This document shows, piece by piece, positions 1,328 through 23,989 of a stretch of DNA of 35,567 nucleotides. A program made the translations under genes and the position numbers. The stretch covers positions 1 through 35,567 of the forward strand of contig JAEUMK010000085.1 in NCBI GenBank assembly GCA_016792565.1, in the 5' to 3' direction. This DNA is from Alphaproteobacteria bacterium (GTDB lineage Bacteria > Pseudomonadota > Alphaproteobacteria > Micropepsales > Micropepsaceae). The notes beneath the pieces are model-generated. The model did no database searches and was not told where the DNA came from. It saw only the letters and a program-made list of their open reading frames with translations. Numbering within the stretch: position 1 is the first letter of the stretch; each line of letters begins with the position of its first letter.

Positions 1328-3271
1328 TTACGCGAGCTTGACGCTCTCGGTCTTGTAGTCCTTGCCGAGCGTCTCGAACACCTTGGCGACGATGCCCTTG
1401 GCGTCGAGGCCGGCGCGCGCATACATCGCGTTCGGCGAGTCGTGGTCGAGGAACACGTCGGGCAGGATCATCGAGCGCATGCGCAGGCCGCCGTCGAGCA
1501 TGCCGTTGTCGGAGAGGTATTGCATGACGTGCGAGCCGAAGCCGCCGATCGAGCCTTCCTCGATGGTGATGAGGATCTCGTGGTCGCGCGCCAGCTTCAG
1601 CACCATCTCTTCGTCGAGCGGCTTCATGAAGCGGGCGTCCGCGATGGTGGCGGAGAGGCCATGGGCGGCGAGCTCGTCGGCCGCCTTCTCGCATTCGGCG
1701 AGCCGGGTGCCGAACGACAGCAGCGCCACCTTCTTGCCCTCGCGAATGATGCGGCCCTTGCCGATCTCGAGCGGGATGCCGACTTCAGGCATCTCCACGC
1801 CGCGGCCTTCGCCGCGGGGATAGCGCACGGCGCTCGGGCGGTCGTTGATCGAAACCTGCGTCGCCACCATGTGCACCAGCTCGGCTTCGTCGGAAGCGGC
1901 CATGATCACGAAATTCGGCAGGCAGCCGAGGTAGGCGTTGTCGAAGGAGCCGGCATGGGTGGCGCCGTCGGCGCCGACGAGGCCGGCGCGGTCGATGGCG
2001 AAGCGGACCGGCAGGCTCTGGATCGCGACGTCATGCACGACCTGGTCGTAGCCGCGCTGCAGGAAGGTGGAATAGATTGCGCAGAACGGTTTGTAGCCCT
2101 CGCTGGCGAGGCCCGCGGCGAAGGTCACCGCATGCTGCTCGGCGATGCCGACGTCGAAGGTGCGGTCGGGGAACGCCTTGTTGAAGATGTCGACGCCGGT
2201 GCCCGACGGCATCGCCGCGGTGATGGCGACGATTTTTTCGTCCTTCTGCGCTTCCTTGACCAGGCTCTGGCCGAACACGTTCTGGTAGGCCGGCGCATTC
2301 GGCTTGGCTTTCGCCTGGGTGCCGGTCGCGACGTCGAACTTGACCACGGCGTGATACTTGTCGGCGGAGGCTTCCGCCGGGCCGTAGCCCTTGCCCTTTT
2401 GCGTCACGACGTGGACCAGGATCGGCCCGGTCTCCATGTCGCGGACGTTCTTCAGAACGGGCAGCAAATGGTCGAGGTTATGGCCGTCGATCGGGCCGAC
2501 GTAGTAAAAGCCGAGCTCCTCGAACAGCGTGCCGCCGTCCATCATGAAGCCGCGGGAATACTCTTCGACGCGGTTGGCGCGGTTGGCGATGATCTTGGGC
2601 AGGCGCTTGTTGATCTGCTTGGCCGCCTCGCGCAGCGTGCGGTAGGTCTTGCCTGAATAGAGCCGCGACAGATACGCGCTCATCGCGCCGACCGGCGGGG
2701 CGATCGACATGTCGTTGTCGTTGAGGATGACGATCAGGCGGGAATTCATCGCGCCGGCGTTGTTCATGGCCTCGTAGGCCATGCCCGCGCTCATGGCGCC
2801 GTCGCCGATCACGGCGATCACGTTGTTCGTGCCGCCGGATAGGTCGCGGGCGACCGCCATGCCGAGGCCCGCGGAGATCGAGGTCGAGGAGTGGGCGGCG
2901 CCGAACGGGTCGTAGTCGCTCTCGCTGCGCTTGGTGAAGCCGGAAAGGCCGCCGCCGGTGCGCAGCGTGCGAATGCGGTCGCGCCGCCCGGTCAGGATCT
3001 TGTGCGGATAGGCCTGGTGGCCGACGTCCCAGATGAGGCGGTCGTTGGGCGTGTCGAAGAGGTGATGCAGCGCGACGGTCAGCTCGACGACGCCGAGCCC
3101 CGCGCCCAGATGGCCGCCGGTCACCGAGACGGCGTCGATGGTCTCGCGGCGCAGTTCGTCGGCCAGCTGCTTGAGCTGCGGCCGGGTCAGCGCCTTCATG
3201 TCGGCCGGACTCTTCACGCGGTCCAGCAGGGGGGTCTTCGAAACGGCGAAATCGTCGGGCTTGTCGGTCAT
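1328..3271 (-). CDS. dxs: 1-deoxy-D-xylulose-5-phosphate synthase
   Basis: Dxs condenses pyruvate and glyceraldehyde-3-phosphate to DXP, the first step of the MEP isoprenoid route and also a precursor for thiamine and pyridoxal. The 647-residue length is normal. Recognisable parts are [20 protein letters not shown] (N-terminal TPP domain), [16 protein letters not shown], the TPP/Mg site [28 protein letters not shown], the transketolase core [28 protein letters not shown], and [15 protein letters not shown]. The C-terminal transketolase domain ends with [13 protein letters not shown] and [20 protein letters not shown]. The start is an ATG at 3269-3271. It belongs to the deacetylase-xseB-ispA-dxs-tlyA block. 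In most relatives ispA abuts dxs; here about 750 bp with an opposite-strand gene separates them, so dxs probably has its own promoter in 3272-3520. Confidence 0.98.
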
Positions 3272-3555: not shown

Positions 3556-4017
3556 ATGACAGACGCAGCTCCTGGCCCTGCCCTCGCCGACCTCCTCACC
3601 GAGAACCTCGTCACGCTGGTCCTCACCTCCCAGGCCCACCTGCTCGGCCGCAATCCGCGGATCGGCGAGGATCTGCGCTGCCTGATCGTCGAGCGCCTCG
3701 CCGCCGCCATGGCCGCGACGGCGCTGGCGATGAAGCGGCTCGGCCCGGCGGCGGCCGATGCCGCGACGGTGGCGGCGCTGGCGGCGCAGGCCGCTTCTGC
3801 CGTCGACGTTCAATTGCCGCCCGCCGCCGCAATCCCCTCGAAATCCGACGTTCAATTCGCCCCTGCCGCCAAACGCCGGCGCGGCGCGCCCCCGGGGAAC
3901 CGCAATCGCTGGGTCCATGGCCGCCGCAGCGCCGCCTTCGCCGCCGCCCGCCGCACGGCGGCGGCTCTGACCGCCGGGACCGATCGCCTCTGCGCGGCGG
4001 CGCGCGGCGCGCCCGCC
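3556..4017 (+). CDS. GAPPGN-motif protein, first copy (C-terminus uncertain; no in-frame stop before ispA)
   Basis: No function is assigned. The frame starts MTDAAPGPALADLLTENLVT, runs through a helical Ala/Leu-rich region (about residues 10-85), then a short duplicated segment: CGACGTTCAATT occurs at 3804-3815 and again 42 nt (14 codons) later at 3846-3857, giving DVQL and DVQF. It ends in the basic motif RRRGAPPGNRNRWVHGR at residues 107-123. The same motif occurs in the gene at 23.1-23.6 kb. GAPxGNxNxxxHG is known from C-termini of short phage or mobile-element proteins and from many alphaproteobacterial hypotheticals. Codons are strongly G/C at third positions like real genes here. The frame stays open past 4017 to a TGA ending at 5121, antisense to ispA and xseB. 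The true end is therefore unknown; +1 or -1 frames would stop at 3970 or 4034. A frameshift or a long overlap is possible. Confidence 0.55.
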
Positions 4018-4917
4018 TCAGGCGTCGCGGCTGACGACGAAGCCGGCAAGGCCGCGCAGCAGGTCGGCGCGGGCGTCGAAGCTCTCCAGATGGGCGGCCG
4101 CCTGGTCGGCCAGCAGCGCGGCCTGGGCGCGGGCCCGCTCCACGCCCATGAGGGTGACGAAATTGGCCTTGCCGCGCGCGGCGTCCTTGCCCCCGGCGGC
4201 CTTGCCCATGGCCTCGACATCGCCCTCGGCGTCGAGCAGGTCGTCGGCAATCTGGAAGGCGAGCCCGAGATCGTGGGCATAGCCGATCAGGGCATGGCGC
4301 TGGTGCGCCCCGGCATGGCCGAGGATCGCCCCGGCTTCGGCCGCGAAGACGATCAGCGCCCCGGTCTTCAGCCGCTGCAGGCGGGTGATGGTGGCGATGT
4401 CGGGTTCGCGGCCTTCGGTGGCGATGTCGATCATCTGTCCGGCGACCATGCCGGCCGGGCCGGCCGCCTGGGCGAGCCGGACGACCAGTTCGGCGCGCAC
4501 GAAGGGATCGGCATGAATGTCCGGCGTCGACAGCAGGCCGAAGGCCAGGGCCTGCAGCGCGTCGCCCGCCAGCACGGCGGTCGCCTCGTCGAAGGCGCGG
4601 TGCACGGTCGGCTTGCCGCGCCTCAGATCGTCGTCGTCCATGCACGGCAGGTCGTCATGGACCAGCGAATAGGCATGCAGGCACTCCACGGCCGCCGCGG
4701 CCCGCCCCAGCGCCCGCTTGTCGACGCCGAACAGGCGTCCGGCCTGGATCGTCAGGAAGGCGCGCAGGCGCTTGCCGCCGCCCAGCGTCGCGTGCCGCAT
4801 CGCTTCGAGAAGCCGCGCCTCGGGACCGTCCGGCCGCGGCAGCAGCAGATCGAGCGTCTCCTCCATGAAGGTCTGGGTTTCGAGCAGCGCCGCCTCGACG
4901 GCCGTCCGGTCCGCCAT
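4018..4917 (-). CDS. ispA: Farnesyl diphosphate synthase
   Basis: IspA condenses IPP with DMAPP and then GPP to give farnesyl diphosphate for quinones, hopanoids or carotenoids. The 299 residues match the bacterial type. Motifs are GGGKRLRAFL (IPP binding), the first Asp-rich motif DDLPCMDDDDLRRG preceded by LHAYSLVH as in E. coli IspA, LKTGALI, and the second Asp-rich motif FQIADDLLDAEGD. The Tyr five residues before the first Asp motif and the two-residue insertion within it point to C15 product length. It starts 4 nt after xseB ends on the same strand, so the two are surely co-transcribed. Downstream it converges with the GAPPGN-motif gene, whose frame runs antisense across it. Confidence 0.96.
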   Translation of the reverse strand: MADRTAVEAALLETQTFMEETLDLLLPRPDGPEARLLEAMRHATLGGGKRLRAFLTIQAGRLFGVDKRALGRAAAAVECLHAYSLVHDDLPCMDDDDLRRGKPTVHRAFDEATAVLAGDALQALAFGLLSTPDIHADPFVRAELVVRLAQAAGPAGMVAGQMIDIATEGREPDIATITRLQRLKTGALIVFAAEAGAILGHAGAHQRHALIGYAHDLGLAFQIADDLLDAEGDVEAMGKAAGGKDAARGKANFVTLMGVERARAQAALLADQAAAHLESFDARADLLRGLAGFVVSRDA

Positions 4918-4921
4918 CGGC

Positions 4922-5167
4922 TCAGCCCGCGTCGAGCTTTTCCGTGCCGGCGGGCGCGCCGCCCGGCCCCAGCACGATCTTCTCGATCCGCGCCTCGGCG
5001 TCCTTCAGCTTGCGCTCGCAATGTGCCTTCAGAGCCGCGCCACGCTCGTAGATGGCGATGGAATCCTCCAGCTCCACCCGGCCGCTCTCCAGCCGCGCGA
5101 CGATCTCTTCCAGGGATTTGAGCGCCTCCTCGAAGGAGAGCTTGTCGATGTCCGTCTTGGTCGCCAT
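4922..5167 (-). CDS. xseB: Exodeoxyribonuclease VII small subunit
   Basis: XseB is the small subunit of exonuclease VII, which degrades single-stranded DNA into acid-soluble oligonucleotides and works with the large subunit XseA (not in this window). The 81-residue protein has the family pattern [20 protein letters not shown], then [20 protein letters not shown] and [12 protein letters not shown], all helical coiled-coil sequence. The C-terminal [15 protein letters not shown] tail is short and disordered. It lies 2 nt downstream of the deacetylase-like gene and 4 nt before ispA, the usual alphaproteobacterial arrangement. Confidence 0.96.
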
Positions 5168-5169
5168 CG

Positions 5170-6099
5170 CTACGCCGCCATCAGTGCTTTCACATGCGCC
5201 GCGGCGGACGCCGCCAGCGCGTCGAGGTCATAGCCGCCCTCGAGAGTCGATACCATCCGCCCCTTGGCATGGACGTCGGCGATCTCGGCGAGGCGCCAGG
5301 TGGCCCAGGCATAGTCGGCCTCGGTGAGCCTCAGATCCGCCAGCGGATCGGCGGCATGGGCGTCGAACCCCGCCGAGACCATCACCAGTTCTGGCCCGAA
5401 CGCCTCCAGGGCCGGCAGGACCAGGCTGTCGAAGGCCTCGCGGAACTCGTCCGAGCCCGCGCGCGGCGGCAGCGGCACGTTCACCACGTTGCCGGCGATG
5501 CCGCGCTCCTGCGGCAGGCCGGTGCCGGGATAGAGCGGCCATTGATGGGTCGAGGCGAAGAACAGGTCGGCGTCCATCTCGAACGCCGCCTGCGTGCCGT
5601 TGCCGTGATGCACGTCGAAATCGACCACGGCGATCCGCCGCAGGCCGTGCGCGGCGCGGGCGTGCTGCGCCCCGACGGCGACATTGTTGAAGACGCAGAA
5701 CCCCATCGCCGTTCCGGGTTCGGCATGATGGCCGGGCGGACGCACGGCGGCGAAGGCGTTGCGCGCCTCGCCGGTCATCACCGCATCGACCGCCGCGATC
5801 ACGGCGCCGGCCGCCCGCAGCACCGCCTCGCCGGACCCCGGCGACAGCGTGGTGTCGCCGTCGATGGACTTCAGGCCGCGCTCCGGCACGCTCGACAGGA
5901 CGCGGCGCACGAAGTCGCCGGGATGGACCCGCGCCAGCGCCTCGGCCGCGGCCCGAGGGGCCTCGCCGCGCGCCAGACCGGCGAAGGCGGGCGCCTCCAG
6001 CGCCTTCAGAACGGCCCGCAGCCGCTCCGGCGACTCCGGGTGGCCCGGCGGCGTCACATGGTCGAGACAGGCGAAATGCGTGAAAAGCGCCGTCGTCAT
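5170..6099 (-). CDS. Histone deacetylase-like amidohydrolase (acetylpolyamine/acetoin utilisation type)
   Basis: Bacterial members of the arginase/deacetylase fold hydrolyse acetylated amines with a catalytic zinc. The motifs are complete: [15 protein letters not shown] near the N-terminus, [20 protein letters not shown] (catalytic His pair), [15 protein letters not shown] (zinc Asp/His), [29 protein letters not shown] (zinc Asp), and EGGYDLDAL. Starting at the ATG at 6097-6099 gives 309 residues beginning [20 protein letters not shown], which matches homologues; an upstream GTG at 6135 would add 12 residues without family support. It heads the xseB-ispA operon. Its substrate is not deducible; acetylpolyamine is the general guess for this subfamily. 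Confidence 0.92.
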
Positions 6100-6158
6100 G
6101 GGCAGACCATAGTCCGCCGCGCTCGACGCCGCCACGTCGAAGACGTTAAGACACGCCC

Positions 6159-20994: not shown

Positions 20995-22248
20995 ATGACC
21001 AACGCCTGCGGCCTCGATTTCGGCACCTCCAATTCCGCCATCGGCACGGTGCAGGGCGGCGTGCCCCGCCTCGCCGCCCTGGAGCGCGGCGGCGCGCTGT
21101 TCCCCAGCGCCATCTTCTTCGACTTCGAGCAGAACCGGCCGCTGTTCGGCGCGGCGGCGATCGAGACCTACATGATGCAGGTCGAGGGCCGCCTGATGCG
21201 GGCGCTGAAGTCGATCCTGGCGACGAAGCTGGTCAAGGAGTCGACCTTCCTCAAGACCCAGCGGATCACCTTCGAGGCGGTGATCGGCCTCTTCGTCGCC
21301 GAGATGAAGACCCGCGCCGAGGCGGCGATCGGCCAGCCGCTCGATGCGGTGGTGCACGGGCGACCCGTGCACTTCGTCGACGGCGACGAGGCCGCCGACC
21401 GCTTCGCGGAGGACACGCTGAAGGTGATCGCCGAGCGCGCCGGCTTCCGCCATGTCAGCTTCCAGTACGAGCCGCTGGCCGCCGCCCGCGCCTATGAGGC
21501 GAAGGTGAACGCCGAGACGCTGGCGCTGATCTGCGACATCGGCGGCGGCACCTCGGACTTCTCGGTCATCCGCCTCGCCCCCGAGCGGCGCGCGGCGCCC
21601 GAGCGCAAGAACGACATCCTCGCCAATTTCGGCATCCGCCTCGGCGGCACCGACCTCGACCGCCACCTGTCGCTGGAGGCGGCGATGCCGATGCTGGGCC
21701 TGGGATCGAGCCTGCACACCAAGAACCTGCCGATGCCGCGCCAGCTCTTCGCCGATCTTGCCCATTGGCCGACCATCAACCAGCTCTACACACCCGAGGC
21801 CCGGCGCATGGTGCGCGAGCTGCACGCCGACGCGGTGGAGCCGCAGAAGACGGCGCGGCTGAAGACCGTGGTCGAGAAGCAGCTCGGCCATCGCCTGGCG
21901 CTTTCCGTCGAGGCGGCCAAGATCGCGCTGTCGGCGGCCCCGGAAGCGGCGATCGGCATGGACTTCATCGAGCCGGGCCTCGCCGCCCCGGCCGACCGCG
22001 ACCGCTTCGACGACGCGGTGGCCGGCGAGCGGGCGCGCCTGGCGGCGGCGGTGCGCGAGACGCTGACGCGCGCCGGCGTCGCGCCCGATTCGGTCGGCAC
22101 GGTGTTCCTGACCGGCGGCTCCAGCCGCGTGCCGGCCCTCAGAAAGGCGATCGCCAGCGTCGTCAGCCCGTCGAAATTCGCCGGCGGCGACGACCTGCTG
22201 TCGGTGGCGCTCGGCCTCACCGAGGAGGCGCGGCTGCGATACCGCTGA
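20995..22248 (+). CDS. YegD-like Hsp70-family protein without substrate-binding domain
   Basis: This 417-residue protein is the ATPase half of the Hsp70/actin fold only. Phosphate-1 is GLDFGTSNSAIG (6-17), phosphate-2 CDIGGGTSDFSV with DIGGGTSD at 181-188, and the adenosine motif LTGGSSRVPALRKAI near residue 375. VSFQYEPLAAARAYEA, RLGGTDLD and the C-terminus AGGDDLLSVALGLTEEARLR match E. coli YegD closely. YegD-type proteins lack the peptide-binding domain of DnaK, and their role is unknown. The ATG at 20995 has AAGGAG 7 nt upstream, better than a TTG at 20977. The gene stands alone after a hairpin and is followed 83 nt later by an SDR. Confidence 0.9.
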   Translation: MTNACGLDFGTSNSAIGTVQGGVPRLAALERGGALFPSAIFFDFEQNRPLFGAAAIETYMMQVEGRLMRALKSILATKLVKESTFLKTQRITFEAVIGLFVAEMKTRAEAAIGQPLDAVVHGRPVHFVDGDEAADRFAEDTLKVIAERAGFRHVSFQYEPLAAARAYEAKVNAETLALICDIGGGTSDFSVIRLAPERRAAPERKNDILANFGIRLGGTDLDRHLSLEAAMPMLGLGSSLHTKNLPMPRQLFADLAHWPTINQLYTPEARRMVRELHADAVEPQKTARLKTVVEKQLGHRLALSVEAAKIALSAAPEAAIGMDFIEPGLAAPADRDRFDDAVAGERARLAAAVRETLTRAGVAPDSVGTVFLTGGSSRVPALRKAIASVVSPSKFAGGDDLLSVALGLTEEARLRYR

Positions 22249-22331
22249 CCCCGGCCGGCGGCGGGCGGAGCGGTTGAACGGCGCGCCGTCCCCTGCCAGT
22301 TTCGCCGGACAGAAATACGGGGAGAGACACC

Positions 22332-23117
22332 ATGGCCTACAAACCCTTCGACCTGACCGGCAAGACGGCGCTGGTGACCGGCGGCAATGGCGGCATCGGG
22401 CTCGGCTTCGCCGACGCGCTGGCGCAGGCGGGCGCGAATGTCGCGATCTGGGGCACCAACGCCGCCAAGAACGACGCCGCCGTGGCCCAGTTGCGGGCGC
22501 ACGGCACCCGCGTCGAGGCCTGGACCATCGACGTCGCCGACGAGGCGGCGGTGATCAAGGGCATCACCGAAGGCGTGCAGGCCTTCGGCGCGATCCACGC
22601 GATCTACGCCAATGCCGGCATCGGGCGCGGCGCGCGTTCGTTCCTGGACATCACGACCGAGGACTACCGCAAGGTGCTGTCGGTCAATCTGGACGGCGTG
22701 TTCTTCACGCTGCGCGAGGGCGCGCGGCACATGGTGGCGCGTCACAAGGCGGGCGACCGCTCGGGCGGCTCGCTGGTCGGGGTCGCCTCGCTGGCGGCGA
22801 TTCACGGCGCGGCCCGCAACCAACACTATGCGGCGACCAAGGGTGCGGTGATCTCGATGATCCGCGCGACGGCGGTGGAGATGGCGCGCTACGGCATCCG
22901 CGCCAATGCCGTGCTGCCCGGCTGGATCGCCACCGACATGACCTCGGGCGGCCAGGCCAACCCGAAATTCGTCGAGAACGTCATCAGCCGCGTGCCGATG
23001 AAGCGCTGGGGCGAGCCCAAGGATTTCGGCGGCATCGCGGTCTACCTGGCGAGCGACGCCTCGTCCTTCCACACCGGCGACAGCTTCCTGATCGACGGCG
23101 CCTACGCGATCTACTGA
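22332..23117 (+). CDS. Short-chain dehydrogenase/reductase
   Basis: This classical SDR (261 residues) binds NAD(P)H at ALVTGGNGGIGLGFADAL and has IYANAGIGRG (NAG motif). VGVASLAAIHGA carries the catalytic Ser. Tyr and Lys lie in NQHYAATKGAVISMIR, and NAVLPGWIATDMT follows. C-terminal VYLASDASSFHTGDSFLIDG fits glucose dehydrogenase/3-oxoacyl reductase-like members. GGGGAGA lies 9 nt before the ATG. The substrate cannot be specified. It converges with the second GAPPGN-motif gene, whose frame stays open antisense across it. Confidence 0.93.
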   Translation: MAYKPFDLTGKTALVTGGNGGIGLGFADALAQAGANVAIWGTNAAKNDAAVAQLRAHGTRVEAWTIDVADEAAVIKGITEGVQAFGAIHAIYANAGIGRGARSFLDITTEDYRKVLSVNLDGVFFTLREGARHMVARHKAGDRSGGSLVGVASLAAIHGAARNQHYAATKGAVISMIRATAVEMARYGIRANAVLPGWIATDMTSGGQANPKFVENVISRVPMKRWGEPKDFGGIAVYLASDASSFHTGDSFLIDGAYAIY

Positions 23118-23648
23118 AGCCGCCGCCTGGAAGGCGAGCGTCGCCGCCCACGCGGCGGCGGCAAGATCGTGCGCCCGCTGCGCGAGGGCCGCGATCGCCG
23201 CATGCCGCGCGGCGGTGCGCCGTGCATAGCGGCCGTGGCGGCGGCGATTGGCGTTGCCCGGAGGGGCCCCCCGGCGGCGCGGCATTGAACCGCCGATTTC
23301 GCCGTTTTCCTGCGCCAAGTCTTTGGCCCGCCTCGCCTTTCCGGCCGGCAAACGGACCGCCGCGGGGCCCTCGGCGGCTTGCGGCAGGCGGCCCCGGCGG
23401 CGCGGCGGCAGGACGAAGGCGCGGCGGACGCGGTAGGGCAGACGGGCGAGCGCCAGGGCGGCGACGGCGGCGGCCGCATTGAGGACCCCGATCAGCCGTT
23501 CGGGTTCCGGTTCGTCCGGCGGCGGCGCGAAGACATAGCGCTGGGCGAGGCCCTGCAGGGCCGCCAGATGGGCGCGCAGGGCGCGGTCGAGACAGGCCGC
23601 GCGCTTCGATTCCGCCCGCGCGGCGGCGAGCATGACCGGTTGCGCCAA
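23118..23648 (-). CDS. GAPPGN-motif protein, second copy (C-terminus uncertain; no in-frame stop before the SDR gene)
   Basis: This frame contains RRRGAPPGNANRRRHGR at residues 124-140, nearly the same basic motif as in the 3.6-kb copy. It is preceded by an Ala/Arg-rich region (RALRAHLAALQGLAQRYVFA, then VLNAAAAVAALALARLPYRV). The N-terminal halves of the two copies are only loosely alike. The start is TTG at 23646-23648 with GGGAGG 7 nt before it; an ATG at 23633 is an alternative. After the motif come about 30 Ala/Arg-rich residues. No stop occurs before the convergent SDR gene, and the frame stays open to 21786. A single shift would terminate at a TAG near the SDR stop. Function unknown; homologous tails occur in phage-related and alphaproteobacterial hypotheticals. 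It is divergent from the 70-residue gene. Confidence 0.5.
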
Positions 23649-23687
23649 ACCCCTCCCTCCCGTGCCGGACGATCCGGCGGGATGGAG

Positions 23688-23714
23688 ACTATAATCCTAT
23701 CAGCGGCGTGTCAA
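23688..23714 (-). promoter_or_regulatory. Candidate promoter of the second GAPPGN-motif gene
   Basis: On the minus strand TTGACA (23709-23714) is followed after 15 bp by TATAGT (23688-23693), inside GATAGGATTATAGTC. The spacer is short for a sigma-70 promoter. The opposite strand reads ACTATAATCCTATC, sharing the ATCCTAT/ATTCCTAT core seen before the first copy. Both GAPPGN genes thus have a perfect TTGACA beside an AT-rich element. Confidence 0.4.
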
Positions 23715-23776: not shown

Positions 23777-23989
23777 ATGAACGCCGTCATGTCCGAGATC
23801 GACGACAAGCACATCGCCCGCACCGCCCGCTCGCTGGTGCGCACCTATGGCGCCCGCGCGCGGTCCGAGGCGCGGGCCTGGGCCCGGCACTTCGCCGAAA
23901 CCGGCGCGCGCCACGAACGCACGGTCTGGGCCCGGGTCGCCCTGGAGCTGCGCCGCCTGACGCGCGAGCGGCGCGAAGAGGCGGCCTGA
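23777..23989 (+). CDS. Small helical protein of 70 residues, unknown function
   Basis: No family is named with confidence. The chain is highly charged and probably all helical: IDDKHIARTARSLVRTYGAR, ARSEARAWARHFAETGARHE, RTVWARVALELRRLTRERRE. Short alphaproteobacterial hypotheticals with the same layout (helix with RTYG/RRYG, then an ARHFA helix, then a W-containing helix) are common. The codons are GC-rich like true genes here, and no longer overlapping alternative exists. ATG at 23777 or 23789 could start it; neither has a strong ribosome site. It is divergent from the GAPPGN gene with 128 bp between them, and convergent with the following hydrolase. Confidence 0.7.
   Translation: MNAVMSEIDDKHIARTARSLVRTYGARARSEARAWARHFAETGARHERTVWARVALELRRLTRERREEAA

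Follow-up and report, generated by a model that had tools for sequence, protein, structure and literature searches.

What kind of gene runs without a stop codon into the end of a convergent housekeeping gene, and why should the same layout occur twice on one contig? The window considered here, the whole stretch of 35,567 nucleotides that was analysed, comes from an alphaproteobacterium of the Micropepsaceae (contig JAEUMK010000085.1) and carries two such genes, copy B and, about 19 kb away, copy A (Table 1). The original prediction described almost the same motif in both copies and a stopless, convergent arrangement against a housekeeping gene. Both parts were borne out, the partner being an SDR gene at copy B and a polyprenyl-synthetase gene at copy A. 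We propose that the two copies belong to a multicopy, lineage-expanded family in which run-on past a conserved core is selected as a length or non-termination requirement, and we give this reading a probability of about 45%.

Table 1. Features of the copy B and copy A loci, in window coordinates.
Feature	Position	Strand	Basis or remark
Copy B, coding-like part before the overlap, 177 aa from TTG 23648	23118..23648	-	coding-frame model and predicted helices
Copy B, conserved motif RRRGAPPGNANRRRHGRY	23226..23279	-	
Copy B, stopless continuation, antisense codon-on-codon to the SDR gene and then to the HSP70-like gene upstream of it	21786..23117	-	
Copy B, perfect TTGACA	23709..23714	-	best -10 TATAGT 23693-23688, spacing 15, off optimum
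Copy B, Shine-Dalgarno-like GGGAGGGAGGGG, directly upstream of TTG 23648	23650..23661	-	
SDR-family oxidoreductase (PF13561), convergent partner of copy B	22332..23117	+	
Copy A, coding-like part before the overlap	3556..4017	+	
Copy A, conserved motif RRRGAPPGNRNRWVHGRR	3874..3927	+	
Copy A, stopless continuation, antisense codon-on-codon through the partner gene	4018..5121	+	
Polyprenyl synthetase (PF00348), convergent partner of copy A	4018..4917	-	

At copy B, the open reading frame 23648..21786 on the minus strand meets its first stop at 21786, with none before or within the convergent SDR gene, and the overlap between the two genes is codon on codon (phase 0). A 3-periodic Markov model called this frame coding from about 23640 to about 23130, after which the signal is that of the partner gene. 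The structure model, which is of low confidence (mean pLDDT 63), predicted N-terminal helices at 3-40 and 49-68, a disordered linker, the motif and a long C-terminal helix at 133-176. Searches of Pfam, PHROGs and PDB assigned no family to copy B. The perfect TTGACA that had been pointed out upstream of this copy is present, and the promoter scan did not call it because the best -10 element lies 15 nt away. Accordingly, a promoter composed of these two elements is possible, not compelling. On the plus strand, a perfect TATAAT at 23690-23695 also lies within this region, upstream of a 70-aa gene (23777-23989) without a Pfam match, and together with the copy B promoter it could form a divergent promoter pair.

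The open reading frame of copy A (3556..5121, plus strand) crosses the whole of its convergent partner gene, and this overlap is in phase 0 as well. The same model called the frame coding between 3556 and about 4040, and from there on the signal is that of the partner. The annotated neighbours of both copies are housekeeping genes (SDR, HSP70-like, alpha/beta hydrolase, polyprenyl synthetase and DXP synthase). The DXP-synthase gene lies on the other side of copy A at 1328-3271, and a gene for a histone-deacetylase-domain protein (5170-6135, minus strand) adjoins the polyprenyl-synthetase gene. The motif is found beyond the two copies of the window, with six strict matches in this genome and seven by profile, and the refuting case of no more than two genome-wide matches did not arise. 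Three of the six strict matches, copies A and B and L099 on contig C33, are convergent, in phase 0 and stopless. L252, at C23:22142, also faces a convergent partner, in phase 1, and stays open for 443 nt into it. L253 on contig C63 enters a same-strand gene out of frame, and L075 at C23:6204 ends at a stop of its own, 61 nt ahead of a same-strand gene.

The idea of a dispersed family was upheld well beyond this genome. When a strict DNA pattern, G-(A/G)-(P/Q)-x-G-N-x-N-xxx-H-G, was searched in 64 genomes of the same GTDB family, it gave 133 matches (0-11 per genome, with 38 of the 64 genomes carrying 1-11), and a reversed control pattern matched in none of them. With a profile, as many as 13 copies were found per genome. 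In a sample of 236 good genomes from the class, matches outside the GTDB family were sporadic and some of them chance-like, indicating that the motif family has expanded in one lineage, which is sampled mostly as MAGs. A tighter profile alignment found 5 loci in alphaproteobacterial MAGs (genome contigs). The conserved core residues are spelt by differing synonymous codons, and therefore the conservation is at the protein level. The proposal that the family targets the ends of genes, on the other hand, was not supported. The copies sit in intergenic DNA, and of 124 considered, 66 face a convergent neighbour and in 58 the next gene downstream is on the same strand, which is roughly the expectation for random orientation in intergenic DNA. 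The neighbours include genes that we take, from recognising their sequences, to be pdxJ-, panB-, dnaB-, mraZ- and rpsD-like.

The members of the family are small basic proteins with a core GAPxGNxNRxxHGRY and a following helix that probably bind nucleic acid. The shared basic nucleic-acid-binding element that was offered as a second explanation is plausible in view of the sequence and of a weak similarity to phage small terminases. Many copies carry GRPR or KRTGRPR ahead of the core, a resemblance to AT-hooks that we regard as a lead only. A second conserved stretch, (S/H/V)EVQ(L/M)GKRTG(R/G), stands just ahead of the core in many copies (e.g., L139, L140, L147 and L156). In L075, the third copy (copy C) of this genome, a similar AKIEVQIA follows the core, and it is nearly identical in genome G003 (L134). 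The tails between core and partner in L143 and L151 appear to contain translated intergenic repeats (SSPA...GKG(T/I)QV), inserted with the frame unbroken. A release-factor-like GGQ reading of the GGQPGN variants was rejected, as many copies have P for Q and only one weak eRF1 match was obtained.

The missing stop was counted in 125 of the 133 pattern-defined copies, which were picked blind to open reading frames, and genes were called with a home-made 3-periodic model seeded by GC at codon position 3. The ORF-blind pattern was used to check a suspected bias of the profile search toward long frames; in this set the run-on effect was smaller but still present. A stopless run of at least 60 nt into the convergent neighbour was found in 57/66 cases in the copy's own frame versus 46/132 in the other two frames (p = 2e-12), and the layout seen at the two loci of the window is thus statistically strong. 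With one copy per partner gene (n = 44), 39/44 were stopless and 27/44 were in phase 0 (p = 1.3e-4). Between the core and the partner gene, stops occupied 8 of 1760 codons in the own frame versus 67 of 3431 in the other frames. Ordinary convergent pairs in the same loci showed essentially no such overlap, the 10 exceptions listed being family pairs from the opposite strand. Stops were not depleted upstream of the core, indicating that the effect is directional.

The openness continues inside the partner. Copies in phase 1 and phase 2 stayed open for a median of 116 and 106 codons past the partner's stop codon, compared with 23 and 24 in controls. In the last 100 codons of phase-0 partners, TTA, CTA and TCA were used at 0 of 2676 codons versus 110 of 33300 in controls. 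Among the last 20 copies fetched, 0/7 convergent cases were in phase 0 and 4/7 were stopless; therefore, well-conserved copies may show the effect more strongly. Where a same-strand gene follows, 20 of 25 long overlaps fell in sense phase 1, the more open sense frame, and many copies in this context have a normal stop 40-66 aa past the motif. About a quarter of all copies, mostly upstream of a same-strand gene, stop 39-77 aa past the motif, indicating that run-on is not required for every copy. The distance from motif to first stop is bimodal, with 28 copies at 38-80 aa, none at 80-120 aa and the rest above 120 aa (one at 15 aa).

In two further species of the genus (L102 and L118/L158), a positional ortholog of copy B adjoins the same SDR gene, stopless and in phase 0 in each case; a third species (L159) lacks it. 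The motif lies 153 nt from the SDR gene in copy B, 186 nt in L102 and 168 nt in L118. L118 has two cores that share a frame next to the SDR gene, at 297 nt and 168 nt from its stop, and a repeated TNEC peptide surrounds both. We compared such distances for partner genes common to different species, where both frames overlap and the distances differ. The changes were multiples of three in 12 of 14 comparisons by our own count (about 8e-5 against one third), although the comparisons are few, some share ancestry and 2/14 break the rule. Ordinary orthologous intergenic controls gave multiples of three in 6/18. Past the SDR stop, the open reading frames of copy B and its orthologs end at differing distances (1332, 1080 and 690 nt). 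At four-fold sites of the partners, most changes alter an amino acid of the antisense frame. Within the final 100 codons, which are overlapped, these sites diverged as fast as elsewhere in the gene or in adjacent genes, indicating that the sequence of the antisense tail is not conserved, only its openness. Taken together, the comparison between species suggests that selection keeps the frame open although the words it encodes are not kept.

Based on these observations, we consider the following mechanism for the selected run-on. The gene would be translated, and selection would act against translation that ends within about 80-120 codons past the core. Most copies do lack a stop of their own, and their frame continues past the junction and deep into the adjacent gene without a stop, usually in whichever alternative frame of that neighbour is the most stop-free. 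In-frame length changes maintain this openness between species without conserving the encoded tail. The stop-poor antisense frame of the neighbour would then supply a sequence-free tail or run-on. The selected consequence could be a longer protein, a non-stop message, or ribosomes that cover antisense RNA. A stronger form of the proposal, which we advance only tentatively and consider less likely than not, is that members of the family systematically forgo a stop codon of their own and read into the stop-poor alternative frame of any gene they abut, as a programmed run-on under selection. It would represent either a new non-stop-encoded system, ArfA/BrfA-like but multicopy, or genes with a 3' end supplied by the neighbour.

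The run-on could instead be neutral, a reading that we disfavour and consider rather unlikely. The C-terminal tail would be unconstrained, and since the antisense codon-on-codon frame is nearly free of stops in GC-rich DNA, any gene that lost its stop would read through. The antisense stop rate is indeed just 0.28% per codon in phase 0 versus 2.5-3% in the other phases, the tail sequence is unconstrained, and a compositional phase bias is known for same-strand gene overlaps (PMC2542354). However, four observations are not expected under neutrality: phase 0 is over-represented in the ORF-blind set, stops are depleted in the gap, the frame is unusually open in phases 1 and 2, and length changes between species keep the frame.

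It is also unlikely, in our estimation, that the copies are ArfA-like non-stop genes, in which ribosomes stall on a transcript that finishes close to the junction with no stop codon reached, their product is tagged by tmRNA, and the small basic protein builds up only under overload of rescue. Stops are indeed avoided across the junction while the tail sequence is free, and long open antisense frames would be the appearance in DNA of a missing stop codon. Both tmRNA and ArfB occur here. Among working precedents, the closest is arfA, which is made from a stop-less mRNA and lies convergent, antisense and tail-to-tail with mscL (PMC10070815). ArfA and BrfA have a C-terminal KH motif in common (PMC8012679), and many copies of the family read (K/R)HG in their motif; however, the K preceding the H is not invariant. 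No terminator was found at the junctions of copies A and B, and across junctions no hairpin or terminator signal rose above controls, the fold z-scores being the same as in controls. The openness over about 100 codons past the partner's stop codon, even in unfavourable phases, exceeds what a terminator at the junction would need, and the frequent normal stops upstream of same-strand genes do not fit. The number of copies per genome is also unlike that of any known rescue factor. For copy B there was no Pfam match, and for a 20-member alignment of the core there was no rescue-factor match in Pfam or NCBIfam.

Regulation of the neighbour coupled to translation appears improbable. Here ribosomes would shield the run-on RNA from Rho, and long antisense translation or out-of-frame leader translation would tune the neighbouring housekeeping gene. 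The frame is open into the neighbour in both contexts, each time in the neighbour's most open frame, and the neighbours include the pdxJ-like and other genes listed above. However, they have no function in common, and the conservation of the protein core is left unexplained. An overprinted gene, with the antisense-encoded tail as a functional protein domain, would account for the reading frame being maintained between species but is very improbable and largely refuted, as the partners' four-fold sites are not slowed in the overlap and the frames end differently among orthologs.

Selection on long antisense frames in GC-rich bacteria is disputed. This family offers a replicated natural experiment, with dozens of independent loci that have a conserved core and the same open run-on into unrelated neighbours. 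A frame that is kept between species while its sequence is free separates selection for an open frame from selection for meaning. The family is also a hazard for annotation, as gene-finding software would predict a 620-aa antisense protein or else no gene at all.

In terms of known systems, the GAPxGNxN...G stretch of phage terminase small subunits (NF040601, TerS_not_xtmA; phrog_1889 and phrog_509) aligns with the core of the family, with a weak match in 14 of 20 members (best E 4e-4). Copy B scored 11.7-13.8 bits against NF040601, far from its curated cut-off of 120 bits, no terminase large subunit was seen near copies A and B, and tblastn against phages and plasmids gave no match. The HGGxSTG domain proteins (NF041373) are linked to the family by one copy, L105, which joins an HGG_STG domain (30.9 bits, cut-off 29) to GAPKGNKNALKHGRYT; copies A and B had no match to this domain, and the HGG part is absent from most copies. 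The long antisense genes of E. coli O157:H7 (ano, pop and others) are likewise open frames antisense to annotated genes (PMC5960689, PMC7103648, PMC9927249). However, those are single embedded frames that share no family, whereas the copies described here have a conserved core outside the partner and only their tail overlaps it. On the one hand, arfA and brfA differ from the family in that they encode a stop after a hairpin or terminator and are not multicopy. On the other hand, they resemble it in being genes for a small basic protein, and their mature message has no stop codon, as may be true of the family, with arfA lying antisense to mscL (PMC10070815; PMC8012679).
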